From Trileptium ribeirensis (lineage: Eukaryota; Nematoda; Enoplea; Enoplida; Thoracostomopsidae): DNA of 64,000 bases. The stretch covers positions 114,071-178,070 of the forward strand of contig JASANE010024760.1 in NCBI GenBank assembly GCA_030248225.1, given 5' to 3'. Below are positions 22,461 to 53,607 of this stretch, piece by piece. A program made the position numbers and the translations under genes. Numbering within the stretch: position 1 is the first letter of the stretch; each line of letters starts with the position of its first letter. The notes under the pieces were generated by a model, which was not told the origin of the DNA, made no database searches, and was given only the letters and a program-made list of their open reading frames with translations.

Positions 22461-23486
22461 TTAATTTCGTGATCGCCGAGCCTCCCAACGCAGCGACAGA
22501 GCAACCGTGCTCAGCTCTGGCAGATGACTAACCCATGCTCGCCAGAGTTCTCGCAGACCAGCATGGTTTATATGGAACCCATCATCGGCGAAGATACGGT
22601 GGCGCCATGCTGAATCTTCGACAAAAGGGTTTTCATCAACAGCGCCCCAATTGAGGCAGCGAAGACCATACTTGTTACATTCCGATTCTATCAGATAGGA
22701 GAATTCCAATGCAGCAGGGACAGATGGTTGAAGAATCGGGCAGCTAATTAAAATCCGATCCGCGGGATACTCGCGGTGATATAACTCTTTCGTCTTCATA
22801 TAATTCAACATTTTCTGCCAATTCTGCCGCGCCAGCATATGACCCTTATGGATATCGTTAATTCCGCAATGGATGATCACATAGCAAAATTCGGTAAAAT
22901 GGATGCGTTCTGTTGTCAAGATGTCGACAATACGTGGGAATGTAGCACCGCTCGCCCATCGAACTTCACCGCCTTCAACTGCTGCAATGCAAGAACACAT
23001 TGAATCCGAGAGCACCAGCACCGTGCGTTCAGCATACTGTCGAGGAATTATAGGCGACTTCAGTAGACTACTTGGATCCCATCGCGGTACTAATTCGTTG
23101 GTTGGCAGCAACCGGTTGAGCTTCGACAATATCTTCCCATATAAATTGAATCCGGGGATGTCCTCTTGACACAAGCGTCTATTTCGAAATTGCTGGCTTA
23201 GACGACTTCCGCTTTCATATACGTAGTCACTTCCATACGCGATGATTACATCACTAGGTCGTATGTCTACGGAAACTAGTTCACCTTCGAACACGTCTGC
23301 AAATCGCGACGTATTAGCATTAAGGAGCTGATGTTTCAGCACACAAGTGATGATTTTCGGCAAGGCAAATACCACAGTCGCAGAAGGGTTGTATCCGTAC
23401 GACCATAACCAAGCGTCGATTTTATGCGGGTCGTCTTGCAATTCCTTTGAGTTATAGAGCTTGTCTACTAGATTATCTTTATTATC
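22461..23486 (-). CDS. BEL C-terminal NADAR-like half domain plus SGNH/GDSL hydrolase
   Basis: This is an open frame continuing that of the integrase ORF after a TAG at 23487-23489; there is no good ATG, so it is read as the C-terminal part of pol. Residues about 20-110 (counted from 23441) match the second half of NADAR: a helix with L-x2-A-x-T-SRF, then LV-x5-SDVI-x3-G and a GFNLYGKILSKL segment in place of the usual N-x-LG-x-LLMxxR. Residues about 138-315 form an SGNH hydrolase: SDS (145-147, block I Ser), CGIND (192-196, block III Asn), and DGFH (287-290, block V Asp and His). All four catalytic residues are present. SGNH enzymes are esterases, lipases or deacetylases; the substrate here is unknown. 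The frame ends at TAA, 150 bases before the LTR. Confidence 0.72.
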   Translation of the reverse strand, partial: DNKDNLVDKLYNSKELQDDPHKIDAWLWSYGYNPSATVVFALPKIITCVLKHQLLNANTSRFADVFEGELVSVDIRPSDVIIAYGSDYVYESGSRLSQQFRNRRLCQEDIPGFNLYGKILSKLNRLLPTNELVPRWDPSSLLKSPIIPRQYAERTVLVLSDSMCSCIAAVEGGEVRWASGATFPRIVDILTTERIHFTEFCYVIIHCGINDIHKGHMLARQNWQKMLNYMKTKELYHREYPADRILISCPILQPSVPAALEFSYLIESECNKYGLRCLNWGAVDENPFVEDSAWRHRIFADDGFHINHAGLRELWRAWVSHLPELSTVALSLRWEARRSRN

Positions 23487-24623
23487 CTAGACAAGCTGAA
23501 TCACTGTCGTTGCCGTTTTTATGCTGGGGAACCGGCTATTGCCTACCAATAACCCCGGGCGCCACACCGAGAAACGGTTGATACGATCAGTTGCAGGTAT
23601 CCCAATGTATCTCGAAGAGTCATCCGACGCCACTAAAAAATTAATTTGTGATGAAATAACCAACACTTGCGAATCAAAATTATTGCCGATATAACTGCCT
23701 TCATCGTTTATTTCCGTCTCGGTTTGAAGAATATTTGATATCTTAGATTTCGCTACAAGAGCAGCATGTCTTAACGGTTCCCGGCAACGAGATCCAGTGT
23801 CTGTTCGCTTACCTTGGGGGCCTTCAGCGGATCTCTCTAGAGGACATAACAACTTGAGGCGCCGGCGCAAACGAGAAACATTTGAAAGAGTCACGTCGGC
23901 TGTTCGAACGCTACCATCGTGGCCTTTATGCAATGCTACTATGCGTCCCAACTTCCACTGTTTCCGAGGAACCTTGTCCGCGATGAGCACGGTCATACCT
24001 AAGTCTGGTGCTTGGTCACTCGTATTTCTCTGCTTCAACTTTCTATCGTTTTCCTTTAGGCCCAACATATATCGACTTTGCCACATGGACCTAAATCTGT
24101 CCAGTATTGCCTTGTTTCGACGCCACAGCAACACTATGTCGGAGTCACTAGTAGTCTCACCATTGGATTCGTCGATACGATCGCTGGATGGATCAAGCAG
24201 GTTAATTGATCGGCCGGTTAAAAGGAAGTTGGCAGGGCACAAAGTAAGTGACTCTAAATCAGAGTCGACATACATCAGCGGCCTCGTGTTCAGGCATGCT
24301 GATATCTCATAACAAAGGGTATGCATCTCTGTCAGAGATACCTTTGCGAAAGAAAGTGAGGAACGAAGACACTGTTTGACCGAAGCCACAAGCCGTTCGT
24401 AGAACCCACCGAACCATGGTGAACGCTCTGGAACAAATTTCCATACTACTCCCTGTGATTGCACCTTTTCTTGTACTAATGGATCACGACACAGTCTATT
24501 CAGCGTAGAGTTGGCCGCCTTGAACTGCTTCGCGTTGTCAAATATCAATATGGACGGTTTGCAATACAATGAGCAAAACCGGCGAAACGCAAGCAAAAAC
24601 TGTTGTGTTGACATGTCCGCCAC
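23487..24623 (-). CDS. BEL integrase C-terminal part and NADAR N-terminal part
   Basis: This continues the frame of 24672-25703 after a TGA at 24672-24674. It has the integrase catalytic Asp in LIFDNAKQF and the Glu in WFGGFYERLV, then the BEL-type extension (LTPANFL-like LTLCPANFLLTG, and PRKQWKLGRI). Integrase acts in the nucleus to join element cDNA to the target. The last 50 codons contain RFSVWRPGLLVGNSRFPSI, which lines up with the first NADAR motif (LSNF...DG...YPSxEH), although the Glu-His pair is not kept. The TAG at the end therefore falls inside the NADAR-like domain, not at a natural boundary. Confidence 0.85.
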   Translation of the reverse strand: MADMSTQQFLLAFRRFCSLYCKPSILIFDNAKQFKAANSTLNRLCRDPLVQEKVQSQGVVWKFVPERSPWFGGFYERLVASVKQCLRSSLSFAKVSLTEMHTLCYEISACLNTRPLMYVDSDLESLTLCPANFLLTGRSINLLDPSSDRIDESNGETTSDSDIVLLWRRNKAILDRFRSMWQSRYMLGLKENDRKLKQRNTSDQAPDLGMTVLIADKVPRKQWKLGRIVALHKGHDGSVRTADVTLSNVSRLRRRLKLLCPLERSAEGPQGKRTDTGSRCREPLRHAALVAKSKISNILQTETEINDEGSYIGNNFDSQVLVISSQINFLVASDDSSRYIGIPATDRINRFSVWRPGLLVGNSRFPSIKTATTVIQLV

Positions 24624-24671
24624 GACCTCTAGATGTACCGTTCGAACAACAGCACATGTAAATAGTGCGAT

Positions 24672-25703
24672 TCAAACCTTCTGGTCGCCAATTGGCGTTC
24701 GTATGATCAGCGGACCGAGGTAGTCCAAACCTGTGGCATCGAAAACTTCACGCTTGCTACAACGAAAATCTGGCAACGGTGGAGTCTCAGGGTACGTGAA
24801 TTTTAAAGCTTTTAATCGTCGACAAAGCTTACACGACTGAATGATCGATCTGACCAAAGAACGACCACGAGGAATCCAATACAATTGGCGTAGCTGGCTC
24901 AAGCAATGTGAAGTGCCCGCGTGAAAAAGTTTGATGTGCATATCTAAAATCACTAACCGGGTGAAATGATCATCCTTTGGAAGTAGTATTGGAAATTTAG
25001 CACTATCGGGAACAGTAGATGACTTAAGGCGGGTTTGACAACGGAGCACACCATCATCACCTTTCAAGATACCAAGCTGTCGCACCAAATGTTTGTCTTG
25101 TCCAGAGCAGGAAGCAGACAATATGCCGTAAAAGTGTTTAGCTTGTACGGCGGAGCACAATAACTTAGTAGTAGCAGACAGCTCTGTAGACCGAAGTACT
25201 CCGATGGTTCTTTTAGCCGGAGCTTGGCAGCAACTTGCAATGAACCACCGAACCCAACAAAGGGATCTAACCAACTTCGATAGGGTGGAAAACCCTTCGT
25301 ATCTGAGGACATCCAGCACAGTACTAGATTGTGCTGCTACCGCTGATAACTGTGATCCGCCTAATTGATCCATAGCCAAAATACCTGTTCCGTCACCTAC
25401 TACAGCACTGTCAGTAGATCTTACAGGTAAATCACCTGTCGATGTTAATGCATTTCGCATGTTACTAGGAATGTCGGGCCATGATATCTCGGCTTCACGA
25501 AGCCAACTTGGACCATGCCACCATCCTGAGTTTGCGTCACACAGTTGGTAGAGGCGACAGCCACGGCTAGCGCAATCAGCAGGATTGCTAGCAGAACGAA
25601 CATAACGGAAGCTCAAATCGAGTTCCTTAGCGACATCATTTATTTCCTTGATGCGGCCTCTAACAAATTTAGTTGACACAGCACCGTGAGCGATCCAATG
25701 CAA
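24672..25703 (-). CDS. BEL RNase H C-terminal part and integrase N-terminal part
   Basis: Same frame as the next ORF upstream (25722-26210), separated from it by TGA at 25722-25724 where BEL RNase H normally has Trp or Cys before TDxQ-x-VLHWI. The ORF carries the RNase H end (SNPADCASRG), the integrase zinc motif (H-x-C..., SCKLCRR) and the first catalytic Asp region (TGLDYLGPL). The TGA that ends it at 24672 replaces the Trp of the strongly conserved KVWIALFTC motif. Confidence 0.88.
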   Translation of the reverse strand: MHWIAHGAVSTKFVRGRIKEINDVAKELDLSFRYVRSASNPADCASRGCRLYQLCDANSGWWHGPSWLREAEISWPDIPSNMRNALTSTGDLPVRSTDSAVVGDGTGILAMDQLGGSQLSAVAAQSSTVLDVLRYEGFSTLSKLVRSLCWVRWFIASCCQAPAKRTIGVLRSTELSATTKLLCSAVQAKHFYGILSASCSGQDKHLVRQLGILKGDDGVLRCQTRLKSSTVPDSAKFPILLPKDDHFTRLVILDMHIKLFHAGTSHCLSQLRQLYWIPRGRSLVRSIIQSCKLCRRLKALKFTYPETPPLPDFRCSKREVFDATGLDYLGPLIIRTPIGDQKV

Positions 25704-25721
25704 AACACACTGGGTATCAGT

Positions 25722-26210
25722 TCAGATGATGCGCCTTATATGACCAAAATTCAACTGCGTGGAAACGAACCTGAGCAACCGGCAACCAACTAACACGGCC
25801 ATTAATTTCAACTGTGGAATGGTATGGTTTCCTGAGGACGCCCGTGTTTTCAGCGGAGCTACCTTTGCTTTGCTGAAGATAAGATAACTACGGCTACTGG
25901 AAGCGGATTTTAGGTAAATAACTGCGGCATAACTTTTGATTGACGCGTCACAAAAGCAATGAAGGCTCGCTTCAGGTTCTAAAAATGGACCAACCAAACG
26001 ATCAATTTTCTGAAAAGGAATAGACTGTAAATCAGACCCAACCTTCAACCATTCTTGTAAGGTATCGTCCTGGAGCTTATCATCCCAATTCAGCTGCTGC
26101 AGCCACGTTTGCTGAATGTGTTGTTTTCCAAGAATAGTAATAGGACTAAAGAAGCCACATGGATCATAGACTCGCGCTACAAATTGCACCAGTTGACGCT
26201 TTGTTGACAC
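25722..26210 (-). CDS. BEL RT connection and RNase H N-terminal part
   Basis: It starts in a frame different from the RT ORF it overlaps, because of a one-base loss near 26245. It encodes the typical BEL/Pao motif STKRQLVQFVARVYDPCGFFSPI, quoted in part (VYDPCGFFSPI), followed by LHCFCDAS, the first RNase H Asp. RNase H degrades the RNA strand of the RNA-DNA hybrid during reverse transcription. Confidence 0.88.
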   Translation of the reverse strand: MSTKRQLVQFVARVYDPCGFFSPITILGKQHIQQTWLQQLNWDDKLQDDTLQEWLKVGSDLQSIPFQKIDRLVGPFLEPEASLHCFCDASIKSYAAVIYLKSASSSRSYLIFSKAKVAPLKTRASSGNHTIPQLKLMAVLVGCRLLRFVSTQLNFGHIRRII

Positions 26211-28027
26211 TGCAGCATGGTCAACATTAATCCTCGGACAAGATAATGAATCGTTCTCGTATCCCAGCTCATACCTAACACTTTAGTGACGATTCCCCAT
26301 TTTCCGCGATCTTCTACTGCCAGAGATGTTTCAAACTCTCTGCTATTGGTATACCACTGTCGTAGGTTCATGGAGGCGTCTGCTATGATTTTCTTTGCGG
26401 ACCTGTAATACACATTCGCTGTTTCGACATTTGAAAGACTTGCTACAACATTATCAACGTATAGGTTCTCGCTCATGAGTTTTGCAGTGGCATCTCTGTA
26501 GAGCGAAAAATGGTGCAGAAGACAAGAAGCGAGCAAAAAGGCACTGCAAACGAGTCCGAATGGTACTCTAGTGAATCGATAGACAATCAAATTGTCACCT
26601 ACGGCAGGTCTGCGGAAATCCCTGACCCAGAAGAACCGTTGAAGATCACGTTCAGATCGTTGAAGACCGACATTGAGGAACGCTTTCTCAACGTCGCTGA
26701 CGACGGCGACTGGTTTCAGACGAAATCGAATCAACAATCCAACTAAATCAGCAAGAAACAACGGCCCACTGTAAAGAGTATCATTAAGGCTGAGAGTACC
26801 ATCCTTTTCTCGGGCGGAAGCATCATATACAATGCGTAATGGTGTGGTCAAACTTTCTGGTTTCATAACGCAGTGGTGGGGCAAGTAATGAATTTGGCCG
26901 GTCGGGAAAGAAGGAGCCACTCCGATGATCTCCTTTTGCAATTGCTCATCGATAATTTCATGATATTTCTGCAATATATCAGGATTCGAAGATAGTCGAC
27001 GAAACAGGGAGCGAAGTCTTCCTAGAGCAAGCTCACGATTCTGCGGAAGCTCTTCAGCATTAATCCTGCGAGGAAATTGCACGTAGTAGCGACCATTTTC
27101 AATAATGCGCGTAGAATTGACCTGGCGAACCGCTTCTTCGTCTGCAGATGAAGGTTGTTCTGTTTTTATTCCTATATCTTCCAAGCGCCAGAATTGCTCG
27201 AGGTTAAATTCTTTATTAACAACCGACGGAAACGAACTCAGCAGCAAAGTAGAGCCTACCCGCCGCGGCTCTATAGCTCTAGAGGTCCCAGCAGCAATGT
27301 AACCAAGTTTTGACGACAGTAGAATCAATCCACCGGGCAACCGAATCTGCTCGGACGTAACAAACTCATAGTACATGTCACCGCCGATCAATACGTCGAT
27401 AGGAAGACTACGAGGACTATCTGACGGCGGCTCTGCCAATCGAACCTGCGAAAGAATCGGATAATCTAATGACTTAATAGGCGGACAAAAAATTGGACAC
27501 GTGATGAACTCCGTTACGTTTGCCTGGACCACAATCTCGTTGTCATTACAATCGATCACAGTGAACTTAATCACATTGTATGTTTTGGAACGCCTTCTTC
27601 TGTCTTCGAAGACACCAAGTGACATCGGCTCCTTGCCTACACAATCTACGTCCAGCTTGGCGGCAGCGGAGGCAGTAATATACGACCGAAATCCAGCCGT
27701 ATCGAAGAGAAATCTCAAAAATACAGGATTCTCCTTACAGGAGCCGCGGCAACATACTAAAGCTGTCTGCATATTGGTAACACTAAAGTCGCTGCGACCC
27801 GTGCCATGAACCGCATTGTTGCTAGCAGGAATGAAGTGAGCAGCTTTGGTGTTCATTTTTAAATTCTGGTTGCTGCCACCTTTGGCAGAAACAGTATTTG
27901 TTGCAGTTTCCAAACTGGTTACTGAACTGAATAGTGAAAAACACAAGCTAGAATGATGGCCCTTACGCTTACAATGGAAACACGACTCCTTGCTTTGACA
28001 CACTCGCGCTTCGTGGCCTTCACACAA
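26177..28027 (-). CDS. BEL gag zinc knuckles, protease and reverse transcriptase
   Basis: Opens immediately after the TGA ending the gag ORF, in the same frame. It carries the rest of a Cys/His cluster (SCFHCKRKGHHSSLC), then an aspartic-protease-like segment with DTAG where DSG/DTG is usual. RT follows, with ISDVEKAF-like VVSDVEKAFLNV, the PFGL block and the BEL-specific YVDN in place of YVDD. It ends in a shifted frame at 26177 just after WDTRT. RT copies the element RNA into cDNA in the virus-like particle. Confidence 0.9.
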   Translation of the reverse strand: MCEGHEARVCQSKESCFHCKRKGHHSSLCFSLFSSVTSLETATNTVSAKGGSNQNLKMNTKAAHFIPASNNAVHGTGRSDFSVTNMQTALVCCRGSCKENPVFLRFLFDTAGFRSYITASAAAKLDVDCVGKEPMSLGVFEDRRRRSKTYNVIKFTVIDCNDNEIVVQANVTEFITCPIFCPPIKSLDYPILSQVRLAEPPSDSPRSLPIDVLIGGDMYYEFVTSEQIRLPGGLILLSSKLGYIAAGTSRAIEPRRVGSTLLLSSFPSVVNKEFNLEQFWRLEDIGIKTEQPSSADEEAVRQVNSTRIIENGRYYVQFPRRINAEELPQNRELALGRLRSLFRRLSSNPDILQKYHEIIDEQLQKEIIGVAPSFPTGQIHYLPHHCVMKPESLTTPLRIVYDASAREKDGTLSLNDTLYSGPLFLADLVGLLIRFRLKPVAVVSDVEKAFLNVGLQRSERDLQRFFWVRDFRRPAVGDNLIVYRFTRVPFGLVCSAFLLASCLLHHFSLYRDATAKLMSENLYVDNVVASLSNVETANVYYRSAKKIIADASMNLRQWYTNSREFETSLAVEDRGKWGIVTKVLGMSWDTRTIHYLVRGLMLTMLQCQQSVNWCNL

Positions 28028-29173
28028 TCAGTTAAGACAGACACGTCCTATCCTTTTCCTGCGCGATTGGTAGTCCGGATACTGATGACACTGATCTGAT
28101 TTATGACTAGAAGTGCTACAGTATTTACAGAGCCGAACATTAGACTTAGCCTGATTTTTATTAAAGTTCAACTGTGATGCTGAAGTAGAAAATCGCAAAT
28201 TGTTTTTGTTCTTAATCGCTAGCTTCGCGTCTGTTACAGCGGCACTTCCCTGCTTATCGGTCTTTGAACTACTTTGGTCGTGAACAAATTGCCGTTCGCT
28301 CATGTCGCGTGCACGGATTTTTTGACGCAACAAATCGCGCAGTTTTGACAATGACCATAGATCTCTACCATTTTGCCTGTGCAGCTCCATTTTCACATGC
28401 AGAGGTAATTTTGACAAAATTATAGGAGTAAAAACCAGTCCATATTGATCTTCACTCAGTCCAAGGCCTGCTAGACTACGTATATGTTTTTCACTTTCAT
28501 CATAAATTCGTTGTAACTGTTGTACATTATGTGAAGCAGGTGGCTGCTCGATTAAGGCAGTCAGATGCGAAAAAATTGCGAGCTGAGGATTGCCAAATCG
28601 GTCCCCTAAAACAGTTTTAACTGCTTCATAGTTTGCAACAGTTAGCGTGTATCCTTCGCACAAGCGCAGAGCATCACCCTCTAAATACCCTTTGAGATAT
28701 TTGAACTTATCAATTTCTGCCAAATTCGGATGTTTATCGATTGTGTTTGTGAAACTGTCCCAAAATTCTCTCCATTTGATGGGGTCCCCGTCGTACTTAG
28801 CTATTTCAAGAGTCGGGAGCTTAATATTTGGTGTTACAGATGCGCCAGGTGTTGGTGATGCACTTATTGGGGTGTGATTAACGGGGGAAATGATACAGTC
28901 ATCAATGCGCAAAGTAACCTTAGCTATAATATCCAAAAAAGATTCGTCGTACTTCACGACTGAATCTATCTCAGTATCAATAGACTGCTCTTCCGTAAGC
29001 CCCTCCAAAATAGCTTCATTAAAATTGTCAATCTTTTGCTTATAAGCGTTTAGCTTAGACAAAATAGTACGCAGTTGTTCAGCAGTTGCTTGATCTGAAT
29101 ATGCTTGTAGTTTGCCATATTCCTTAGTAACATTAGCTTTGTACGCGTTCCGTTGCTTGATAAGTTTAGACAT
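28028..29173 (-). CDS. BEL gag (DUF1759-type)
   Basis: A 381-codon ORF beginning MSKLIKQR. It has a coiled-coil N-terminal third, then the hallmark BEL gag block LPTLEIAKYDGDPIKWREFWDSF (positions 29173 minus about 390-460 bases) and a C-terminal Cys/His region. The terminal TGA (28028-28030) lies inside a zinc motif of the form C-L-N-[stop]-L-C-x-GH-x4-C, exactly where the second Cys is expected. Gag forms the particle and binds RNA. Confidence 0.9.
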   Translation of the reverse strand: MSKLIKQRNAYKANVTKEYGKLQAYSDQATAEQLRTILSKLNAYKQKIDNFNEAILEGLTEEQSIDTEIDSVVKYDESFLDIIAKVTLRIDDCIISPVNHTPISASPTPGASVTPNIKLPTLEIAKYDGDPIKWREFWDSFTNTIDKHPNLAEIDKFKYLKGYLEGDALRLCEGYTLTVANYEAVKTVLGDRFGNPQLAIFSHLTALIEQPPASHNVQQLQRIYDESEKHIRSLAGLGLSEDQYGLVFTPIILSKLPLHVKMELHRQNGRDLWSLSKLRDLLRQKIRARDMSERQFVHDQSSSKTDKQGSAAVTDAKLAIKNKNNLRFSTSASQLNFNKNQAKSNVRLCKYCSTSSHKSDQCHQYPDYQSRRKRIGRVCLN

Positions 29174-29555: not shown

Positions 29556-29701
29556 TTTAACGAATAAAGTTTACGTTAATTATAACAACAACACATTGAC
29601 AACAATCATCCTTATATAGTGTCTGTCCGAATGACATATGCAAATCAATTTTAATAGTCAGTTCTTTCATCATCTTCATCAAACGGAAAAGAAATGTGAC
29701 A
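29556..29701 (-). repeat. BEL 5' LTR
   Basis: 146-bp partner of 22165-22310 with one substitution. It is followed by GAGCC (29702-29706), the target duplication, after which the sequence of the giant element's LTR resumes. Confidence 0.93.
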
Positions 29702-31171
29702 GAGCCCGACTGGTCCCGTTGCTCAGACGAGCGCCCTGCTTTTATACTGCTGTTCCTACCCCCCTTTCTTTCCGCTTTTTTTTCGCACTCCTACCATTAC
29801 TGCGATTCAACAGGAAAATCCGAATTTAAAAAAAACAATATAATCAAAAGCAAAACAGCATCGTATGTATATGTGCTACATGCCTGGTAAAGCCCCTGTA
29901 AACAAAGCGGCAGGCAACTACAGAACAACACGAAGAGATACCAGCAGCCCATAGCGACATAGACGAACTTTTGTTTTTGTGTAGACAGTGGCCGAAACGT
30001 GCCAAGTCGGCCCTGTAAACAACTAAACCTCGCACTGGTCGGTGCGAGAAAAATTTTAGGGCGAAATATAACGGCGCTCGGGGCGCCGTTTGCTCATAGG
30101 GATATCGGCACATTTTTGCCGACATCGCGAGAACGAAAAACAGTGGGCGGCCGGGGGCAGGACCAGCATCATGCCCTGGCAGGCCGGCTACTGATGAAAA
30201 TTTAAAATTTAATATTTCTTTTATAGGAGGCCTGTTAGAGGCCGATTTAGGAGGCGAAAATCCCAAATTTCGATGTCCCGTTTGAGTTTAGGGGATCCTG
30301 AGCGGACCCGCGGGGGTGGGCGGCCCCGGTTTTGCACTAAACAGTTAGGGGAGAACCCGATAAGTGTCCCGGGCTCCAAAAATCGGGGAGTTTAGATTAT
30401 TTTGGGTGTCCTTTTAGGCTTAGGAGATTGGAGGCTTAAGCGCCTGTTCGGGGATCCATAAGTATTTAAGGGATCCAAATTTTTAGACCCGCCGGGACGA
30501 TTTGACACCCCTGCGAAGTTCTTAAGACGGTTTAGTCACCCTGGTTCCTCTAAAATTTGTCGGAAACCCAAAAATTAAATTTTCGTGTCGCACCCTAAAA
30601 TAGTTCCTTAGAAAATTTGTGCCCGAAATTTGCTTTCCGAAAATTTTGTTCAAATGCCCATCCTGCATATTTTATAGATACATAATGCACTGTATAGGCA
30701 CAGCAGATACCAAGTAGATTACCGCAACTCCTCGACGTGTGCGCTGGGATCGGCCCAGGGCGACCAGTTTTCTTGCAGCACGAAAAGTCCCTGTGGCATC
30801 CGTTGGTCCCCGGCCTCTCCGAGCGCACACCCGTACTCCGCACGATTACGACGTCATGTATAATATAATGCACAACGTTTTATGTACACAATACGGCATC
30901 AATTCACTTCACGAGGATCGACCGGACACCTCTGATCGGGGTACTCTTTCTTCCATGATTTGGTGCCAAAATCACCCCGGGCACCTTCGGTGGAGTGTGA
31001 CCTTATAAACACAATATAAACGAAATACAATTTTTTTTATTTCCAAATTAATACGATACTGCACAATTACGTAATAAATTCATACAGAGGTCACACTCTA
31101 CCGGTATCCGGCCGTCCGTTCTTGTTCCCTACGAAAGCGTTTATTCAATTTCATAAAATTGGGCTGTTACA
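29702..31171 (-). repeat. 3' LTR of the giant element, second part
   Basis: Continues the LTR from the BEL insertion to the terminal CTGTTACA at 31171. It corresponds to 52138-53607 in the right LTR. It includes GC-rich stem-forming stretches (for example GGCGCTCGGGGCGCC near 30072) and a 3' half rich in GGGGATCC-type blocks. The following AAGAGA purine run, read in minus sense, could be part of a polypurine tract. Confidence 0.9.
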
Positions 31172-32612: not shown

Positions 32613-33871
32613 TTAATGCGTTAAGCGTCTTAGCTCGGCGTCTCTAACTAAACGGCTCACCCACTCATGCAAGTTCCGCCGACAATACTGCGACACCATC
32701 GGCTCGTCAAAATGAGGCCTTTCTTGCCATTCCATGTGTGGCTCGTCCCGTTCCCACGCGTCTGCACTGTGGAACGCGACCGGCCAGGAAGGCATGTAAA
32801 CGTTGTGGAAGGTGTCGTGCTGCCGTCGGTGGTTAGCCATTAGTTGTTTGAGCTCGGCCGTCCAGGATAAAGCGTCCTGATTAGTGGCAGCCCATCGGGG
32901 TGCCGGTGGCGCTATAACGATGGCGGTGTTGACTGCAACTCGGCGAGAGAGTACGCCTAAGTGCCGCTTGAATTTACGAAAGGCGGCGTTCGGCAAGGAC
33001 GCGTGGAGCTGCTCCATTGGTGCCTTGCGGTAGATGTATTGGAACCCGCCAAGTATAACGATGCAGCTGGTCTGCGGGGTTAGGATCGCGTTGGCCAACT
33101 GCAGTAAACGTACCATGGTGGAACCTGGTCATCTGTTGACGATCCATTTATTTTCGGTGGCCATTTCTAAGATCGGCAGCGCTAGAGCATCACCTACTAT
33201 AATCGTCCGAGGCGAGCGAACGTGGCCGTTAGTACGGTAATCTCGTACTTCCTCGAGTAATCGGCCCATGACGTTGTGGCAGCGCGTCGGGGCTTCCTGC
33301 TGCTGCAGCTGTTGATTGGTGCGCCAGACGCCCCAGAAAGTGTCCGTGGTGGCCTCTAACAGCTGCTGGTCGTCAGTGAGTCGTAGAATTCGCGCATATT
33401 CCGGTATGGCGAATTTACTGAGCAGAATTGGCCGCATGATATGTTCAAGAAGCGGCTTTAGTCGGGCCTGGGTAATACCGTCGATGAGCTCGTTCTTTAG
33501 CTCTCGCGCTCGTGTCTTCAGCTGCAGCGGAGTGCCTGTCATGAGTAGCAGTTCCCGGACGGCATCGGTCAGTTCCAGCAGCGAGAGCACCTGTACTTGG
33601 TAATGCTTTTCGACGGTCGACAAGGTGTTGCCGTCATGTGCGAATGGGGTTGGTGCCTCGTGCATATTTGACAGTTCCGGCCATTCGGTACCGTGGGATA
33701 GAAATGTCACGTACGGCTTGATTAAATCCACACGGTAAGTCGGAATCGCTGGAAGCTGGAACCACGTCGATTCTGGTGGGGTAAATGGCCCACTCACCGA
33801 TACGCGTCCGCTGGATCGCCTCCGAGTCTGCTCGGCTTCGTCGCTGGTCGAGGTTGCGAGGTGCTGGCCAT
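32613..33871 (-). CDS. NADAR-SGNH accessory gene, copy B (one in-frame TGA)
   Basis: An ATG at 33871 directly follows a TTCTTGCAG acceptor-like sequence, but the long ORF is in a different frame and runs from about 33797. It shows a clear NADAR domain: ELSNM...PFAHDG, TVEKHYQ, IMRPILLSKF, then DTFWG and NVMGRLLEEVRDY. After RSPRTIIVGDALALP (SGNH block I with Ala for the catalytic Ser) a TGA at 33129-33131 interrupts the frame, which continues unchanged with LTPQTSCIVILGGF (block III-like) to TAA at 32613. Copy A has Arg where this TGA lies, so CGA to TGA is the simplest origin. NADAR enzymes cleave N-glycosidic bonds; some remove ADP-ribose from guanine in nucleic acids. Function in a retroelement is unknown. 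It lies between pol/copy A and the 3' LTR. Confidence 0.8.
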
Positions 33872-34104
33872 CTGCAAGAATAAACTCAAATAAATATTCG
33901 GGTTGTCGTTGCGTAGGGTCGCTCCTTTTCGCTGGGCGCTCGCTGGTTAACTCTTTCTGCCCTGCTTTACCTGCGCATTACCTTATAGCACTGTTACCCT
34001 GTGCGTTTCTCTTACCTCCCTAAATCGGCTACTTCTTCCCCTTCTTGTTTGGATTGGTACGGCCTTATTCCTGCCAGGGCTCAGCCTGCTTATATAGGTG
34101 GGCT

Positions 34105-35298
34105 TCACCCAGTGCGCCGGATTAGTTCTTCGGTCCAGTTGCACAGCTGTGGCCAGAACGGCGGGGAGACCACTGGCTCGGGCCACCGATGACGTTCTTC
34201 GCCCCGATGAAACGGACCGATTGCGTCCCAGGCCTCGATCCCTTTCAGCGCCGCAGGCCATTTTGGCATGATGACGCTCATGAGCGCCTGGTGCCCATCT
34301 ACCATCCTGGTCCTCCGATCGGTCAGTTCGTCGAACCATGCCGTACTGTCGACCCTGAAGTCGTCCCAATGTGGCGCCGGTCAGGTGATAACAACGGCCA
34401 AGTCTGCCCGGAGCCGTCGCTCGAGCACCATCAGGTGGCGCTTTATCCGCTTGAGGTAGGCGCCGGGCGAGAAGGCTTTGTTTGGTAGATGCCAAACGTC
34501 CCGGTAGCCGCCGATGATGACCACGCAGTCCGTTTGCGGCGTTAGGAACGCGTTCGCCCAATGGATCAACGAAATCATGTTGAGTCCGGGCCGCACGAAC
34601 GTGATGCGGTTGTAGTCGTCGGCCACATCCAGCAGGGGCAAGGCGCGTTCGTCGCCGACAATGATGGTCCGCGGCCACCGCACGAAACGGTCGCGATGGA
34701 ACGACCGGATGTCGCACAATAAATGTCCCAACACGTTGTGGTACGCCGGTTGGTCAGCGCCGCACTCGCTCCGGTGGACACCTGTGCCCCAGAAGTTATC
34801 GAAGGTGTCGTTGAGGAGCGGCTTGTGGCCCGAATCGTCCAGCTCCTCCCAGTAGTCGAGCTCCTGGAATTTCGCCAATAGGATTGGGCGCATGACGTGC
34901 AGCTGGTACGATTGGAGCCACCGTCGGGTGTTTGCTGGCAGCGTGCGGAGGAGGGCTACGCTGCGTAGTTTGACCTCCGTCGGCGACATTCGCTGGTCCA
35001 GCATGTGGGCGGTCACCGTGACGAAGCCCAACAAGTCCAGGATCGTGATGTAGAAATGCTCGGTGGCGCTGCCGAGCTGGCGGCCATTATGTGTAAAGCC
35101 ACCATGAAGATAATGTTCGTTGGCCAGCGTGGTGTGGTTGGATCGCTTGAGCTCGACCGCATCCCAGAAGCGTGAGCTGCTCATGTGGCTTCGGGGAACG
35201 GCCGGGTAACGGTGTCCATCACACACCCCAGGCTCGTGTAGTACTCCTTGTGGCAGGCGGGGCGCACGGATATCGTTCTGGCTGTAGCTGCGGCGCAT
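34105..35298 (-). CDS. NADAR-SGNH accessory gene, copy A (one in-frame TGA)
   Basis: An ATG at 35298 directly follows a pyrimidine-rich TTCATTTTAG, an ideal splice acceptor, and opens a frame to TGA at 34381-34383. The same frame continues to TGA at 34105 and stays alignable with copy B across the interruption. NADAR motifs are at residues about 57-205: ANEHYLHGGFTHNG, TEHFY (79-83), HVMRPILLAKF, DNFWGTG (167-173) and NVLGHLLCDIR (188-198). The second domain has IIVGDE (212-217, Glu for the SGNH Ser) and VVIIGGYRDVW (259-269). NADAR looks complete, while the hydrolase lacks its nucleophile. Copies A and B share order and local motifs but are strongly diverged, so the duplication is old. Confidence 0.83.
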
Positions 35299-35431
35299 CT
35301 AAAATGAAGGAAGCACTGGTAAGTTTACATAGTATGGATGAAAATTAGGTCTGCCTTAACTTTCACCCTTGTTCTGGGTTTTGTGGGATTTTGGGTTCTA
35401 CCTCGGGGTACGTGCCGTTATGTCGGGTAGT

Positions 35432-38400
35432 TTAGTCCACTTGCGGGTCCGACTCGTCGGACTCGGATTCCTCATGGGGTGGTGGTCGAGGTACGCGCTG
35501 TCGCCAAGCGGCGGGGTGCAGTTCTTGACTGGAGGGGTAGCGTGGGAACGTGGTTGGTGGCAAAGTTCCGCCGGGAGAGCGTTCTCCTGTTAAAAGTGGT
35601 CGCGGGGTCAATATAGGCGCGCTTGTCATCGAAGTAGTGACACTAGTGGATTGTGCGCGTGTGACAGAAGCTAGTCTGGTTGATGTTCCGGCAGTATCGG
35701 CAGTGGTTGTCTCTGGTTCCTGAAAAGTTACGCGTCTAGGCCTGCGTAAGGCGTCCTCTACTTCCTCGTCCGATGCTGCGCCATACGGCCTAAAGACCCG
35801 GTCTCTAGCCTGTCGATACAAAAGGTGCCTGGTTGGGGCCGTTGCATGTGTGGTACTAAGTCGTATTATTCCTGAGGAAGTAGTAGTGGCTGTGGTGCGT
35901 ATCAACTCGGTAATGGTCACTGTGGATGGTCCCGGTTGTTCAGTGCTTGTAAACTGGATAGTTGAACTGCCTCGAGCCGACACTATTTGTTTCCGTTGGG
36001 TGGCCCGTCCGACGAGGCCTTTTCCCCGCTCTTCTGGCGGTGCTCGCGTGCTCCGTTGCTCGCTCGGCGGTGCTCGGGTGCGAGGAGGGGTGCTTAGTGT
36101 CACTGCTCGCCCAGTTCCTCTCCGAGGTGCTGGTGTTTCGCTGCTTGAACTTGCAAGTGTGAATTCACTAAATGAGTCAGAGGCTCCCGGTTGCGTGGTA
36201 GGGGTCCTAGAACTGGTGCTGGATGTTTCCTGTCCTGCCTGAGCGCGTCGTTCGGCAGAGGACGGTTCCTGTGAAGTTTGGCTAGTTAACTCGTCGTCTG
36301 CTTCCGCTGCTCTTACGTCTACTGTCGTGCCCTCTCCGGAGGTTTCCGACAAGTAACTGGACATTGGTGACCCTAGAGGTGGCTGAGTCATGGGTGCCTC
36401 GCGAAAGACCCACTGATGAGGAGACATAGGCCTGTTAGCGGCTGCTGGTGGAGCACTATAAGGGCGCATTGTTGTATAGTCTCCTATGGTCTGAGTTGAC
36501 ATTTCCATTGGTACCCGTAGTCGCGATGCCATGATATGTTCAGCTGGTCGTGATTGAAATAATGGGTGATCCTGCGCGGCGAGCATGATTGCGTAGCGTA
36601 GATCCCCTGAGGTGTACGGTCCTGGTACGACGATTCCGCCTGATGCTCCGCGTGGCGTGGTAGATAGCGTGATGTCCGCTGGGTAGAAATGTTGTCCCTC
36701 GAGTATTCCAACACCTACTGTCGGAACGCCAAACGGAACTTCCTCACTGGTAGCCACTATTCTTTCCATCGTGGTCACTGGCACGGTATGTTGTCCGTAC
36801 TCTACCTGCGTATCTCGGCTACCAGGTTCTGGTATGTATGAGAAGGCCTCCTGACTAGTGACCTGCTCCTGTGATATTGGTGGCCATGATGGTTCTATTT
36901 CCCTATCCGGATCAGTTAGCGGGATCCGATTTCTGACCGTCCTTGGATTTTGAGGTTCGTAGTCGTCTGTCCGATACTCAATATGTTCCATTGCTGCTTG
37001 CTCAGCCTCGATCTCAGCGTAGGTCCGACGATATAAATTAGGGTCGTTAGGGTCACCCATTTCTATGCTTTCCGTATCGGAACTATCACTGACTGCTGTT
37101 CTTACTGTGCGTACTGCTACTTCGTCTACCGGCTCTATCTCGGTGACGAAATCCCTATCAGCGATAATACGTTGGGTTGCCTCAGTCAAACCCCGCTCTA
37201 GTACGGAAGCGTGTACTTGGCCTAACCAATCACCCACGTTGGGTACTGGGTCTAATGCCCTAAAGCATGGCTTAGTTCTATTAATATGTACGACATGGGC
37301 CATGCCTTCTGGATTAGAATGCATTCGTACGCGCATGCACGGCGGGGTGATCCCTAATATTTTGTATGGTCCACACCATCGAGGCGTGAGCTTCCTAGAT
37401 GTTCCTGGTGTAGTATCGTGTCGATAAACCCAAACTAATTCTCCGGTGTGATAGCGTGGTTCGCGAGCTCGCCTATCATATCTTAATCGATTTAATTCTT
37501 GAGCGGCTTTCATTGATTGGTAAGCACGCTCCCTGATAGAAGCCATCCAGCGCTGCGCGTTGGCCCTATAGGAATGTGCTCCTGTGTATCCAGTGGCTGC
37601 ACTATGCGTGTCATATTCTCCGGGCAACCTAGGATAAAATCCATGCATTAGCAAAAACGGCGGGTATTTTGTTGCTGTGTGTACCGAAGAATTGTAGGCC
37701 ATTATGCAAAACGGTAGGGATACATCCCATGAGTGATGGTCATCCTGTGGTACGCTCACTCGTAACAAGTATAGTAGTGTCCTATTGAATCTTTCAATTT
37801 CACCATTTGCCTGAGGGTGATAAGCTAGACTCATGTGCCGAAATATTTGCATTTCCTGGCACAGCTCTTCGAACATGTGTGCTGTGAAGGCACCTCCTCG
37901 GTCAGAATAGAGCTCCCTGGGAGCTCCATATCGGTTGACTACCTCATATAGAAATATATGGGCAGCTGTGTGAGCATCCTGGTGCCTTATTGGTATTGCT
38001 ATTGCAAATTTTGTAAACTGGTCTATGAATGCAATAACATAGCGATTGCCTGCCTGCGACCTAACTTGAATATCCAGTATGTCCACAAATACACGGTACA
38101 TTGGTTGATTTGCCAACGGAACCCTACCCAATCCGGTGGTTATCCGAGAAATTGGGTCCTTCGCGGACTGGCATAGAGTGCATCGCCTGATCCATTGTTG
38201 TACGTGTTCGGACATACCTTTCCAATAGTAGAACTGTTTTAGTTTAGCTATAAGCCGGTCACGGCCAGGGTGTCCTCCATATAAGGTATTGTGTTCATGT
38301 TTGAGTATTTGCTGTACGAGCGTGATAGGGACGCATAATTTATCATTTATATCCCCGGGTTGTAACGGATGCATGTATAGTATTTTGGTATCCGCGGCTA

Positions 38401-40324
38401 ATTCAAAATAGTGTGCCCGCATTTCAATTCTTAGCGCCCCTAATTCGGCCTTAGGCCGTGTTTTGTTATAAAGATACCACCAAATTGGACCCAGTTCTGG
38501 GTCATTTCGTTGGATATATGGTAAGAGTCGCACCAAATTAAAATCTGGGAGGTCCGAAAAGAACGGCAGATATATGTTTTCGTGAGTGTCCTGTGCGTCC
38601 TCAATTCGGACGGTTGGTAGTATCTCCGTTTCATAATGCATCATTAGTTTCATGAGCCGGTCAAACTCTTGTTCTGTTGGTAGCGTGGTTGCTCTTAGGC
38701 CCATTGTTTCTGATTCGGTACGAAACGGTCTTTTGGGTCCTCGAGCCTGAGGTCTGCCTTCAGAACCCGAGATGGTGGTTGTACGGACCGACATCACTGG
38801 GGTTTCTCCTGGATCCATCCTAATCGGGATAGCACTTAGCGTAGCTGCCTGCTGGGTCAGCGTTGCTGGGGGTACTGTAGTTATTTGCGTGTCGGGGACC
38901 AGTTGCGATGGGATTGCTTCGGGGTTGGGTTGGCCTGGAGGAGCTATTGGGCTCCCTGTTATAGGGGTTGGCGCGCCAGTTGCGAGCGGTGCTACCGTGC
39001 GTACGGGATACGGCAGATGCGATTGATCCCATGCTGCGCAGGTTGTTGGCGGGCGAGGTCCGGTGGGTCGTCCTCGGCCCATCATAAGGACTTCGTAAGT
39101 GTCTCCTAATTCCTCAACTACAGATGGGTCGTACCTAGGATCGCGTGATAGGGCATCTGCGTTGCCATTTTCCTTACCTGGCCTATATAATATTTCGAAT
39201 CCCCCAAACTCAAGCAATAGCTCACTTCGCCATTGAGACAGGCGTGAATTTCTGGGTGGTTTATCAAATAGGGTCTTGAGTGGTTTGTGGTCAGTTTCAA
39301 CGTGAAATTTCTGCCCTACAAGGTAATGTTTGAAATGTAACGCGGCCCACCTAATAGCGAGAGCTTCAGTTTCTATGGCGGGATACCTGCGTTGATAATC
39401 AAGGAGGGCCTTGCTAGCGTATGCGATGGGTTTTATTCCTTGTTTAGTTTTCTGGGATAACACTGCACCCATAGCATATCCCGAAGCGTCCGTTTGCAGG
39501 ATAAACGGTTGCGTGAAATCAGGGTGGATTAGGACCGGTTCATCTAGCAGGGCTTGTTTCAGCTTCTTAAAAGCTTCCTCACACCTAGGGGTCCATTTGA
39601 ATTCTGTGTCCTTACGTTTTAATTCATTCAATTGTTCGCAGATGTCCGAATAATTTTGGATAAATTTGTGGTAGTAACCCACAAGTCCTAAGAAACTTTG
39701 GAGTTGTTTCAACGTCTCCGGACGTTTAAATTCTTCTATGGCTATTGCCTTTTCTGGGTCCGGTTTGACACCTTCGGTACTGATTATATGTCCTAAATAC
39801 TTGAGGCTGCCTCGTCCGAAGTGACATTTTGAGGGTTTGAGTTTTAAATTTGCCTTGCGAAAACGATCGAAAACCCGAATCAGGTCTGCCAGATGGGCCT
39901 CGAATGATGGTGAGAAAACTAGGATGTCATCGATGTATATTAGGCATTTTTCCCACTCAAGTCCCTTCAAAATCATTGACATGCAACGCTGAAAGGCTCC
40001 GGGGGACGAATTTAGACCAAACGGTAGGACATTATACTCATACTGTCCGTGTACCGTCACAAAAGATGTTTTATCCTTAGTTTCGGGATCTAATTCTAAC
40101 TGCCAAAATCCCTTATTTAGGTCCAAACTGGACATTAGCTTCGTATTCCTGAGACATCCTAGTATATCATCTATGCGTGGCAGTGGGTATGCGTCTTGTT
40201 CTGCTACTGTGTTGACCTTCCGAAAATCGACACAGAGTCGGAGAGAGCCGTCGCTCTTTGTTACATAGACTATTGGTGACCCCCACGGTGAACTAGATGG
40301 GGCTATGAGGCCCGCGTCTAGCAT
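35432..40324 (-). CDS. Giant element pol: reverse transcriptase, RNase H, integrase, disordered tail
   Basis: A 1630-codon ORF. Homology to RT begins upstream of its first ATG and is broken there by TGA at 40436-40438 in the same frame. Order: RT (YIDD at about 130), RNase H (TDASGYAMGAVLSQ, TDHKPL, NADALSR), a 150-residue Pro/Thr-rich spacer, the HHCC integrase zinc motif (HNTLYGGHPG, CTLCQ), the DDE core (VDILD, YSDRGGAF, NGEIERFN) and a GPY/F-type module (WCGPYKIL). After this comes a Ser/Thr/Pro/Glu-rich tail of about 520 residues ending at TAA. These enzymes copy the RNA genome and insert the cDNA. Domain order and motifs place it in Ty3/gypsy. The tail is much longer than usual and matches no domain I know. 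Confidence 0.92.
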   Translation of the reverse strand: MLDAGLIAPSSSPWGSPIVYVTKSDGSLRLCVDFRKVNTVAEQDAYPLPRIDDILGCLRNTKLMSSLDLNKGFWQLELDPETKDKTSFVTVHGQYEYNVLPFGLNSSPGAFQRCMSMILKGLEWEKCLIYIDDILVFSPSFEAHLADLIRVFDRFRKANLKLKPSKCHFGRGSLKYLGHIISTEGVKPDPEKAIAIEEFKRPETLKQLQSFLGLVGYYHKFIQNYSDICEQLNELKRKDTEFKWTPRCEEAFKKLKQALLDEPVLIHPDFTQPFILQTDASGYAMGAVLSQKTKQGIKPIAYASKALLDYQRRYPAIETEALAIRWAALHFKHYLVGQKFHVETDHKPLKTLFDKPPRNSRLSQWRSELLLEFGGFEILYRPGKENGNADALSRDPRYDPSVVEELGDTYEVLMMGRGRPTGPRPPTTCAAWDQSHLPYPVRTVAPLATGAPTPITGSPIAPPGQPNPEAIPSQLVPDTQITTVPPATLTQQAATLSAIPIRMDPGETPVMSVRTTTISGSEGRPQARGPKRPFRTESETMGLRATTLPTEQEFDRLMKLMMHYETEILPTVRIEDAQDTHENIYLPFFSDLPDFNLVRLLPYIQRNDPELGPIWWYLYNKTRPKAELGALRIEMRAHYFELAADTKILYMHPLQPGDINDKLCVPITLVQQILKHEHNTLYGGHPGRDRLIAKLKQFYYWKGMSEHVQQWIRRCTLCQSAKDPISRITTGLGRVPLANQPMYRVFVDILDIQVRSQAGNRYVIAFIDQFTKFAIAIPIRHQDAHTAAHIFLYEVVNRYGAPRELYSDRGGAFTAHMFEELCQEMQIFRHMSLAYHPQANGEIERFNRTLLYLLRVSVPQDDHHSWDVSLPFCIMAYNSSVHTATKYPPFLLMHGFYPRLPGEYDTHSAATGYTGAHSYRANAQRWMASIRERAYQSMKAAQELNRLRYDRRAREPRYHTGELVWVYRHDTTPGTSRKLTPRWCGPYKILGITPPCMRVRMHSNPEGMAHVVHINRTKPCFRALDPVPNVGDWLGQVHASVLERGLTEATQRIIADRDFVTEIEPVDEVAVRTVRTAVSDSSDTESIEMGDPNDPNLYRRTYAEIEAEQAAMEHIEYRTDDYEPQNPRTVRNRIPLTDPDREIEPSWPPISQEQVTSQEAFSYIPEPGSRDTQVEYGQHTVPVTTMERIVATSEEVPFGVPTVGVGILEGQHFYPADITLSTTPRGASGGIVVPGPYTSGDLRYAIMLAAQDHPLFQSRPAEHIMASRLRVPMEMSTQTIGDYTTMRPYSAPPAAANRPMSPHQWVFREAPMTQPPLGSPMSSYLSETSGEGTTVDVRAAEADDELTSQTSQEPSSAERRAQAGQETSSTSSRTPTTQPGASDSFSEFTLASSSSETPAPRRGTGRAVTLSTPPRTRAPPSEQRSTRAPPEERGKGLVGRATQRKQIVSARGSSTIQFTSTEQPGPSTVTITELIRTTATTTSSGIIRLSTTHATAPTRHLLYRQARDRVFRPYGAASDEEVEDALRRPRRVTFQEPETTTADTAGTSTRLASVTRAQSTSVTTSMTSAPILTPRPLLTGERSPGGTLPPTTFPRYPSSQELHPAAWRQRVPRPPPHEESESDESDPQVD

Positions 40325-40727: not shown

Positions 40728-43700
40728 CTATGTGCCCAATAGTTTGTCCTGAGTATATGGTGACCGGAGTGTTGCAAAATTGATAACTGCGATTGGTATG
40801 GTCCGCTGACTTCTGAGCACTAATGCGTGTGCCATTGCGATATCCGTCATTTCAGGAGCAGGGACAAATAGAGCGGGTCCTACGCCTGTGTCAGCAATTT
40901 CGGGGATAGCGTTGATAAATGTTTCTGTATTTGGTTCGATGGTGGTGAGTTTTCTGCACATCACCGCTATTAAGGGTGGGTCATAGCGCTCTAAGCCTGC
41001 GAAGGGTATTTTGGCTTCTTCCTCGTCTATGCCAATTTCTAAACAGCGCTCGCGAAAATTTATGATGCATTTTGGCAGTTGCGACAAGAAATTTGTTCCT
41101 AAAATGCAATGGTACGGAGCGGTTTGGGTAACGAAGAATTCCGTCTGCACCTTAATAGGTCCAATTGATAAGGGTACACTTATGCTACCGTCCAATGCTA
41201 ATTCCTGTTTGGTAGCCGATACTATCCGCGTTGAGTCGTCTGGGCGGGGCTGAAGGCCTAACTTACTTACCAAATGTTGTGATACGATAGAGACGTCCGC
41301 GCCTGTATCGATCAACGTGAGGACTGGTGTCCGGTAAATGAAAGCGTTGATGAGCAACGGTGCGTCTATGTGGTGCATGGCATTGACTAGTCGGTGGTAA
41401 GATACTGTGCGATGTCCCCTACGTTGCGCACGCTCGGATACTGCAAATAGTTCCGTAGGTTCCACCAGAACAACGTCCTCGTCCTCATTGGGGTTATTTA
41501 GTCGAGCCGATCGACGAGGGCTCAATGTCCGCAATTCCAGGTGTTCCGTGGAAGCGGCTGGGGCTGAAACTGTAGGCCGAACCGCATCTGGGGTACTATA
41601 CTCGTTTCCCGTTTTGATGTTCAACTCAAGCCTCTTTGGGTTTGTTTGGCCACATGGTCGTTGCTGCCACCAGCGTTGTAAGCGTCCTCTTATACATTTA
41701 GGGCAAAAGCCTGCCTTCTTCCGGAAGTAAATGATAGCCCCTATGCCCACAACTACCAGCACAACGAGCATCCAAAGGTAAGGAGCTACTCCCGTTGTCG
41801 TGATGTATGGGAAGTCGATCACCTTCTTTAACTGCTCATCGGCTATCCGTTGGACCTGTAAGTTGGTAGCCTTGGCATGTTCTAATGAGCTCCAGGTGAT
41901 AGGCCTGAGAGGAATATCTGGGAAGTCATGTATGGTGATGTTAGGTCCGATGTGAACGATGACCTCTCGAGCATCTAATGTACTAGCGAGCATTAGTGGT
42001 CCGACCACTAGCTGGGTATAATTGCTGTGTGACAGCCATAATACTCTATTTTCCGGTATCCTAATGGTTTCTCCGCGCGTGACGTGGCTTAGGTGCTTCT
42101 GCTTGGAGACCACAGCTTTGGGCTCTGCGGTTCGAATTAGCACTCCTTGCGCGGTGGTATATACGTCGGTATGGTTGACCATTGGTCCTACCAATGCGCT
42201 GTTCCTGCATATGCGGCGTGTGTCATCTGGAGCGTCTTCGCCCATGATGATCCAGTCCAAACAGCGTGAAGAATGGTCGGTGGCCAAAGCGTGAACCTCG
42301 CAAAAAGCAATGCCGGGCCGCGTGTTGCATGCGTGCAAGTTCAGCACCTCGTATCGTGCCTGTTCAACCCGCGTAGCGTATTCTGGCAGGGGTAGTCTCA
42401 TGTGCGCTCTACGTTGAGGTACGTTCCAACCGACGTTGTATATCCGAAAATAAGGCCGGACGTCGTCCGATGTAACTAGCGGTACCCTTAAGATGAATGC
42501 AAATTTGAACGTGCCCAGGTCAATGTGCACTGGGTAAATTTGCCCAAACTGGTAGGCTAACGCCGGCTCGCGTATTAGTATGGTTTGCCCTATTCTTGGA
42601 TCCTTTTCGAATAGACGCTTTAGTGTCGCGGCATCCACCACTTTTGGTGATAGCTGCCCGCTCATCATGGCTTCCATGACGGCGTCAACTGAAGAGCGCA
42701 GGCTGGTACGAAACATATGGTTTACCAATTCGCGATGTACCTCGGTCACGTAGCGTTGTTCCTGGCACCTAACCTGTTCTATCATACCAACCACTTCCTG
42801 CATCTCATGGTGCAAGAAGGAGTAAAGCTCCTCGTTAGCGCGTGTTAGTTTCAAAATCGCTCTCGAGTTGCCCTGGGCCACACTATAAGTGTTCCGCATT
42901 TCCTTGGACAGTGCTATTACCTGCTTGTTTAGATCCTTTAGATGTACTGCATTTGTGAAGGCTACCCCTACTCCTAAAAATCCTGTAACTACGCCAGCAG
43001 CTCCGGCTAAGGCAGCGAGAAATCTTTTCTTACGAGCCTTGGGCTCTTCACAAAAATGAACGTTCGCTTCGCAATATTCGCGCATTAGAGCCATGTAATA
43101 ACTTGTATCTAGCACACCCTGATATGTGCTCCTCAGTTCTCGCTCCAACTCTTGAATTTTACGCTGTAGATCCGGCATGGTAGTACAATTCGGGTTGGGG
43201 CAACAGTTCCCCAGGCATGGTTTACCCCTGGGGGTGTAGACACACCACGCCATGCCGGTTGCTTGCCTGCTCGGTTGTAACCCATCTAAGGACAATCGCA
43301 AAACGATCGGTAGAAAAGTGGATCGCGCGGCGGTTATTACCAGACCCTGTGGTTCGATTAGGGTTCCCACTTGTTGGTTAACCATGGCTCCTAAGCGGGC
43401 TGCCTGGTCCGAAAATGGCGTGGCGATTTCCTGGGTTTGACCCATTTGTTGAACGATAAGCAGGAAAATTACTAATCCCACGAATCTAACCCCTCGGTGC
43501 CACAATTCTGCAGCTGCTGCATATCGGCGGCTTAGTTTAATTGAGCAGGGCCGTACCGACCTGGTCAGTATTGTTCGGCCTCCCTCAGTTGCGTCGACAT
43601 ACGGTTCGTCCTCGAGATCGTCATTGTCCGAGGGTGAGTCGAGTTCGGAAACCACGTCGTCCGAGTCGAGCGTTGCAATAGCGGACATGTTAAACTCGTC

Positions 43701-53100: not shown

Positions 53101-53607
53101 GCATATTGTATAGATACATAATGCACTGTATAGGCACAGCAGATACCAAGTAGATTACCGCAACTCCTCGACGTGTGCGCTGGGATCGGCCCAGGGCGAC
53201 CATTTTTCTTGCATCACGAAAAGTCCCTGTGGCATCCGTTGGTCCCCGGCCTCTCCGAACGCACACCCGTACTCCGCACGATTACGACATCATGTATAAT
53301 ATAATGCACGTTTTATGTACATAATACGGCATCAATTCACTTCACGAGGATCGACCGGACACCTCTGATCGGGGTACTCTTTCTTCCATGATTTGGTGCC
53401 AAAATCACCCCGGGCACCTTCGAGCGGTCGAGTGTGACCTTATAAACACAATATAAACGAAATACAATTTTTTTATTTCAAAATTAATACGATACTGCAC
53501 AATTACGTAATAAATTCATACAGTGGTCACACTCCACCGGTATCCGGCCGTCCGTTCTTGTTCCCTACGAAAGCGTTTATTCAATTTCATAAAATTGGGC
53601 TGTTACA
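50157..53607 (-). repeat. 5' LTR of the giant element (intact)
   Basis: 3451 bases, TG...CA, uninterrupted. It carries the empty BEL target (AAGAGCCCGAC near 52139) and the same internal GC-rich duplication as the left LTR (51403-51590 and 51890-52057). The outer flank ATAT at 53608-53611 pairs with 20204-20207. Transcription would start within this copy and run leftward; no promoter can be assigned with confidence. Confidence 0.9.

Follow-up and report, generated by a model that had tools for sequence, protein, structure and literature searches.

What are two tandem genes with NADAR domains doing inside a retroelement of a nematode? The question is raised by a 64,000-nucleotide stretch of the Trileptium ribeirensis assembly GCA_030248225.1 (contig JASANE010024760.1, positions 114,071 to 178,070 of the forward strand; hereafter the window), in which a Ty3/gypsy-type unit of 23.9 kb occupies 29701–53607 on the minus strand and carries the two genes, here named A and B. 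Purifying selection is clear for both of them. They are tentatively read as an accessory NADAR pair of this large element, in which B would be a working NADAR and A a divergent partner, with an adenosine diphosphate (ADP)-ribose-type substrate; this is the explanation favoured here, although it is held with less than even confidence.

Two tandem genes between pol and the 3' LTR

The unit encodes reverse transcriptase (RT), RNase H and integrase in that order and is bounded by two long terminal repeat (LTR)-like repeats of ~1.47 kb each, 97.0% alike, features which place it among the Ty3/gypsy LTR elements. Genes A and B follow one another on the minus strand between pol (open reading frame 2, ORF2) and the 3' LTR. 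An initial annotation of this DNA had described two tandem genes on a gypsy-type element, and this is borne out by the domain order, the LTRs and the gene positions. The places it gave for the genes were approximately right, but B was found to start at an ATG at 33871, behind an AG and 74 bases upstream of the start first chosen, and both window copies are broken. B has lost its frame between 33871 and 33797 and has a second lesion, an in-frame TGA, at 33129–33131. The features of the unit are as follows:

34105–35298, minus strand: gene A, NADAR and C-terminal domain; ATG at 35298; broken by an in-frame TGA at 34381–34383
34702–35061, minus strand: NADAR match in A, residues 80–199 (PF08719, E-value 1.1e-6)
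32613–33871, minus strand: gene B, NADAR and C-terminal domain; ATG at 33871; frame break and TGA
33240–33686, minus strand: NADAR match in B, residues 38–186 of a piece of 222 amino acids (PF08719, E-value 5.9e-12)
32616–33209, minus strand: C-terminal domain of B; its likeness to SGNH is one of pattern, without profile support
35299–35300, minus strand: AG of cttcattttag, a splice-acceptor-like site immediately upstream of the ATG of A
33872–33873, minus strand: AG of ttattcttgcag, a splice-acceptor-like site immediately upstream of the ATG of B
35432–40324, minus strand: ORF2, 1630 amino acids; RT, RNase H and integrase, followed by ~600 amino acids of tail
40728–48410, minus strand: ORF1, 2560 amino acids; CCHC knuckle, a long middle that includes an env-like segment, and a C-terminal aspartic protease
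29701–31171, minus strand: 3' LTR, 97.0% identity with 52139–53607; first letters TGTAACAG
52139–53607, minus strand: 5' LTR, 97.0% identity with 29701–31171

NADAR identity of the two genes

The profile search called for by the initial annotation was run and supports its assignment of NADAR to both genes. B matched PF08719 with 46.6 bits (E-value 5.9e-12) and exceeded the Pfam cutoff of 35.1, which A did not reach, and all 12 open-frame copies submitted (seven of A and five of B) matched this family at E-values up to 1. One B copy also matched TIGR02464 at 7.1e-15, below that model's cutoff, and phrog_1017 at 5.5e-16; the corresponding values for the A copy L010 were 3.2e-5 and 1.4e-4. When a nine-row NADAR alignment was compared with the PDB, YbiA (2b3w) was the best match with an E-value of 0.0052, and hhalign of the NADAR alignment to YbiA gave 84.9%.

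Full-length A as query returned no relative elsewhere at E-values up to 0.01 among 2698 candidates, and an alignment of A and B copies returned none at E-values up to 0.1 among 5007 candidates; the 19 pattern matches in IMG/VR included no relative. With the NADAR part alone, three proteins were obtained among 8000 candidates scored. In one of these (P0001, 298 amino acids) the NADAR lies behind a part which by eye resembles ORF1 of long interspersed nuclear elements (LINEs), with Pfam naming NADAR alone, and it looks like a protein of the Tx1 LINE ORF1 kind.

Copies in the genome and selection

The assembly (687 Mb in 20,229 contigs) was searched with A, giving 2169 first-look candidates, of which 129 were scored. 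At least 129 matches to A are present, being 67–100% identical; by a hand count which takes in partial matches and the window's own match, a stop interrupts the matched stretch in 37 of the 129, the other 92 being free of stops there. Twenty loci were picked by hand from these matches, all of which match A over residues 1–305 without a stop there, a choice that favours intact copies. The NADAR half of B was found behind A in all 20 fetched loci and its second half in 19 (the exception being L018), while LTR-related sequence (75–86% in pieces) followed B in 20 of 20, lying ~3.4 kb farther away in L013 than in most. The absence of the genes from related elements had been put forward beforehand as a sign of a one-off host gene capture; the copies fetched from the animal's own genome carry both, L018 with the NADAR half of B alone.

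A and B are ~33% identical. In a tree built from 19 A and 10 B proteins and rooted at the midpoint, the two formed separate groups (support of 1.0 for B and 0.48 for A), and from this grouping the split between A and B seems older than the spread of the family.

The survey for purifying selection that had also been proposed was made within this genome, with the ratio of nonsynonymous to synonymous rates (dN/dS) calculated by the Nei-Gojobori method. It covered 19 of 21 copies for A, L027 and the window copy being dropped with open frames shorter than 380 codons, and 10 of 21 for B, and the pairs compared are not independent. In dS bins of 0.1 and above, dN/dS was 0.115–0.16 for A and 0.066–0.109 for B, staying far below 1 out to dS >1; in the lowest dS bin it was 0.311 for A (four pairs) and 0.197 for B (one pair). 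Values for the single domains were taken from pairs with dS of 0.2–1.6, namely 151 of 171 pairs for A (102 for its N-terminal part) and 41 of 45 for B (35 for its N-terminal part). In A these were 0.192 for the N-terminal part, 0.158 for NADAR and 0.152 for the second domain, and in B 0.151, 0.039 and 0.084, respectively. The tail of pol gave 0.085 (8 of 21 copies, 25 of 28 pairs), relative to which selection is somewhat weaker on A and stronger on the NADAR of B. Together, the copy number and dN/dS argue for a kept accessory pair and not for a one-off capture. Since selection has kept both genes, both probably help the element.

State of the NADAR pocket

Pocket positions were assigned by alignment to E. 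coli YbiA and from the residues given in PMC11543638, with E43, K50, E125, D130 and W133 (P. nicotianae numbering) as reference. The counts cover those of the 21 copies which were matched by a residue pattern; this pattern required the Trp, so that its conservation rests on the ten-row alignment. Overall, B keeps E43, E125, D130 and W133 of the pocket, with K50 replaced. The first Glu of B is present in 20 of 20 pattern-matched copies (21 examined), the second in 19 of 19, and the Asp in 18 of those 19. In A, the second acidic position (E125) is Asn or Cys in all 20 matched copies, 19 of which keep the Asp; the first Glu position (E43) is occupied by Thr, or by a Glu shifted by one residue, and the Trp is kept.

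In the NADAR of E. coli C7, replacement of the second acidic residue by Ala or Asn is reported to abolish activity (PMC11543638). The Lys that binds phosphate (P. nicotianae K50, E. coli C7 K95) is described in the same paper as essential in the C7 protein for efficient hydrolysis of guanine-ADP-ribose, with Arg still functional in vitro. Read beside these mutants, the residues of A make a standard guanine-ADP-ribose hydrolase doubtful, while for B such an activity is possible. Like E. coli YbiA and the DarT1-linked NADARs described in PMC11543638, the two proteins are NADARs by profile, with the pocket Glu, Asp and Trp kept in B; unlike those proteins, they have lost the pocket Lys, A has lost more, and a second domain is fused to the NADAR.

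The second domain

The label of SGNH-like that had been given to the C-terminal domain found no profile support. None of 10 open-frame second domains matched the SGNH families of Pfam at E-values up to 10, the commonest weak match being DUF4070 (5 of 10, best E-value 0.015). Against the PDB, a GDSL protein was matched with a 10-row alignment at a non-significant E-value of 0.86 and was gone with 24 rows, when CcpA came first at 0.61. By hhalign, neither TesA nor the GDSL ORF that belongs to the adjacent BEL element gave a significant match; the relatives obtained in a scan with TesA were 86–100% identical and were set aside. In our own reading of the register, the place of the Ser after GD (or GE, DD) is E, D or A, GG[YF][RQ] replaces GxN, and no His is present in the C-terminal block. 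With no profile match and without the catalytic Ser, Asn and His, an intact SGNH esterase is rejected. The GD, the GG and the C-terminal pattern are reminiscent of SGNH enzymes, and alternating strands and helices are seen in a poor model; the domain is perhaps Rossmann-like by pattern, with SGNH membership unproven. The GDSL ORF3 of bdelloid LTR elements is an SGNH-type accessory ORF whose invariant residues are called intact in its description (PMC5408684), whereas the domain studied here has none of the invariant residues and no profile matches.

Possible splice acceptors

In 20 of 21 copies the ATG of A is immediately preceded by AG, upstream of which the sequence is rich in pyrimidines; L021 has GG instead. 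The AG before the ATG of B is present in 21 of 21 copies by construction, as B starts were found by seeking AG-ATG; agreement with the majority base upstream of B climbs from 0.53 to 0.95 toward the ATG, a rise which gapless anchoring makes likely anyway. It is suspected that the AG at each start may serve as a cis- or trans-splice acceptor. The leader between the LTR and ORF1 (48411–52138, 3.7 kb), in which the largest listed ORF on the element strand has 129 amino acids, could be the place of the exons of such spliced mRNAs.

Possible roles of A and B

In the explanation tentatively favoured here, A and B, as accessory genes of a large Ty3/gypsy-type element, would have arisen by an old tandem duplication and are probably expressed from spliced mRNAs, with an acceptor at each ATG. 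B would be the working member, with a NADAR that keeps the acidic pocket residues and the Trp and a second, perhaps Rossmann-like domain that would position it. A, with most of the pocket lost, would be its divergent partner, and the two together would cleave or bind an N-glycosidic ADP-ribose-type adduct, or an end derived from nicotinamide adenine dinucleotide (NAD), on the RNA or complementary DNA (cDNA) of the element.

Several results count against this explanation. The PF08719 match of A is weak (29.5 bits, E-value 1.1e-6, against the cutoff of 35.1), and the A copy L024 reached only 0.0038 with TIGR02464 and 0.45 with phrog_1017. The structure models of A (pLDDT 41.6) and of the NADAR of B (pLDDT 52.3, pTM 0.52) were too weak for use, and a B frame open over 380 codons was present in just 10 of 21 copies. 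The position of the phosphate-binding Lys is Val in 20 of 20 matched copies of B and hydrophobic in 16 of 16 matched copies of A, and with the Lys lost from both genes the canonical hydrolysis of guanine-ADP-ribose may be absent. Intact catalysis in both copies is not supported, given this hydrophobic position in both genes wherever it was seen and the Asn or Cys of A.

A realistic alternative, not preferred here, is that A and B are RNA factors of the nucleus without catalytic activity, in which the pocket would bind RNA or a cap-like or NAD-like ligand and which would control splicing or export of the genomic RNA of the element. They would then act in the manner of SNA-3, a nematode NADAR protein required for SL1 trans-splicing (PMC9303266), and of CERV, the accessory protein of the C. 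elegans gypsy element Cer1, which is made from a spliced mRNA and has globular domains, one of them like an inactive enzyme fold (PMC10309623). Like CERV, A and B are accessory genes between pol and the 3' LTR of a gypsy element and are possibly expressed by splicing, which is deduced here from the sequence; as a difference, the main text of the CERV paper makes no mention of NADAR (PMC10309623). The loss of the essential Lys from both genes, the further degradation of A and the acceptor-like AG at its ATG in 20 of 21 copies would all suit such factors, but the NADAR of B is the most constrained part measured (0.039) and keeps both Glu, the Asp and the Trp, which would be needless for pure binding.

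Unlikely in our judgement is the counter-defence proposed in the initial annotation, by which the proteins would strip host-added ADP-ribose off the nucleic acid of the element. NADARs are reported to reverse guanine ADP-ribosylation (PMC11543638, PMC11125620) and to occur in phages, large DNA viruses and some animal RNA viruses (PMC9503650), and with the acidic residues kept in B, removal of ADP-ribose from element nucleic acid by this protein is possible. Such a role is at odds with the loss of the essential Lys and with a duplicate pair of which one member is degraded. More doubtful still is a two-part NADAR system, with B active or ligand-binding and A a pseudo-enzyme, produced from separately spliced or trans-spliced mRNAs, which would edit or read an ADP-ribose or NAD-type mark on element RNA to pass host RNA processing and would be a retroelement counterpart of SNA-3 and CERV. 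That the genes are host or passenger DNA captured once and functionless for the element is highly improbable and was rejected on copy number and dN/dS, since the broken window copies and the 10 of 21 B copies open over 380 codons stand against at least 129 matches, the presence of B after A in all 20 fetched loci (in one, its NADAR half alone) and dN/dS far below 1 out to dS >1.

The element and its surroundings

Late in ORF1, upstream of the protease, the env-like segment shows RKKR followed by an Ala/Gly-rich hydrophobic stretch, with a hydrophobic anchor further on. No env family of Pfam was matched to this segment; the label comes from inspection of the sequence alone, and env before protease in ORF1 would be an unusual order. 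The tail of ORF2 behind the integrase (last 600 codons) is long and rich in Pro, Ser and Thr, yet constrained (dN/dS 0.085, eight copies). Neither a primer binding site nor a target-site duplication was obvious for the unit at 29701–53607.

Beyond the 3' LTR lies a BEL/Pao element with broken frames (22461–29173, minus strand), in which DUF1759, RT, H2C2 and DUF5641 were recognized. Its terminal ORF (22464–23441, 326 amino acids) matched Lipase_GDSL_2 at an E-value of 2.2e-5, below the curated cutoff, and contains SDS, GIND and DGFH, making it an SGNH-type ORF in another LTR class. Beyond this element, a copy of the leader (20224–22164) is 96.4% identical to 50208–52144 next to the first LTR, and this repeat extends over 6 bases of the LTR end, which is what a target-site duplication made by the BEL insertion would produce. 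It appears that a second gypsy copy was joined to the second LTR and that the BEL element landed at that junction. As the BEL element and the second leader copy, and no host DNA, lie beyond the 3' LTR, no target-site duplication of the gypsy unit is expected there. Rfam at gathering thresholds gave no match in the window.

NADAR in other retroelements

NADAR had initially been taken as no standard retrotransposon gene, a view which holds in part. A Gypsy lineage of the brown alga Ectocarpus is reported to carry a YbiA-family NADAR in Pol, and a Tx1 LINE of the oyster Crassostrea gigas a NADAR in ORF1 (PMC12477816), but the matches listed include no published precedent for a retroelement with two such genes in tandem at its 3' end and a second domain besides NADAR. 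Among these matches, no title besides that of PMC12477816 reports NADAR or YbiA in a retrotransposon, and the main text of PMC9503650 contains none of the terms retrotransposon, retroelement or gypsy. As in Ectocarpus, a Ty3/gypsy element has kept a NADAR domain; unlike the algal lineage, the nematode element has its NADARs in a pair of separate genes downstream of pol, both of them with a second domain, and also has an env-like segment (PMC12477816). The C. gigas Tx1 is alike in having NADAR in a retroelement protein and differs in being a non-LTR element and in the ORF1 position (PMC12477816).

The accessory NADAR pair of T. ribeirensis would be a further retroelement setting for this domain beside the algal Gypsy and the oyster Tx1, and both of its paralogues are under strong selection, the pocket of one being degraded. 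That unlike retroelements have captured the same domain more than once points to an importance of ADP-ribose or NAD chemistry for the RNA or cDNA of retroelements, and the A/B family makes this idea testable with one purified domain.
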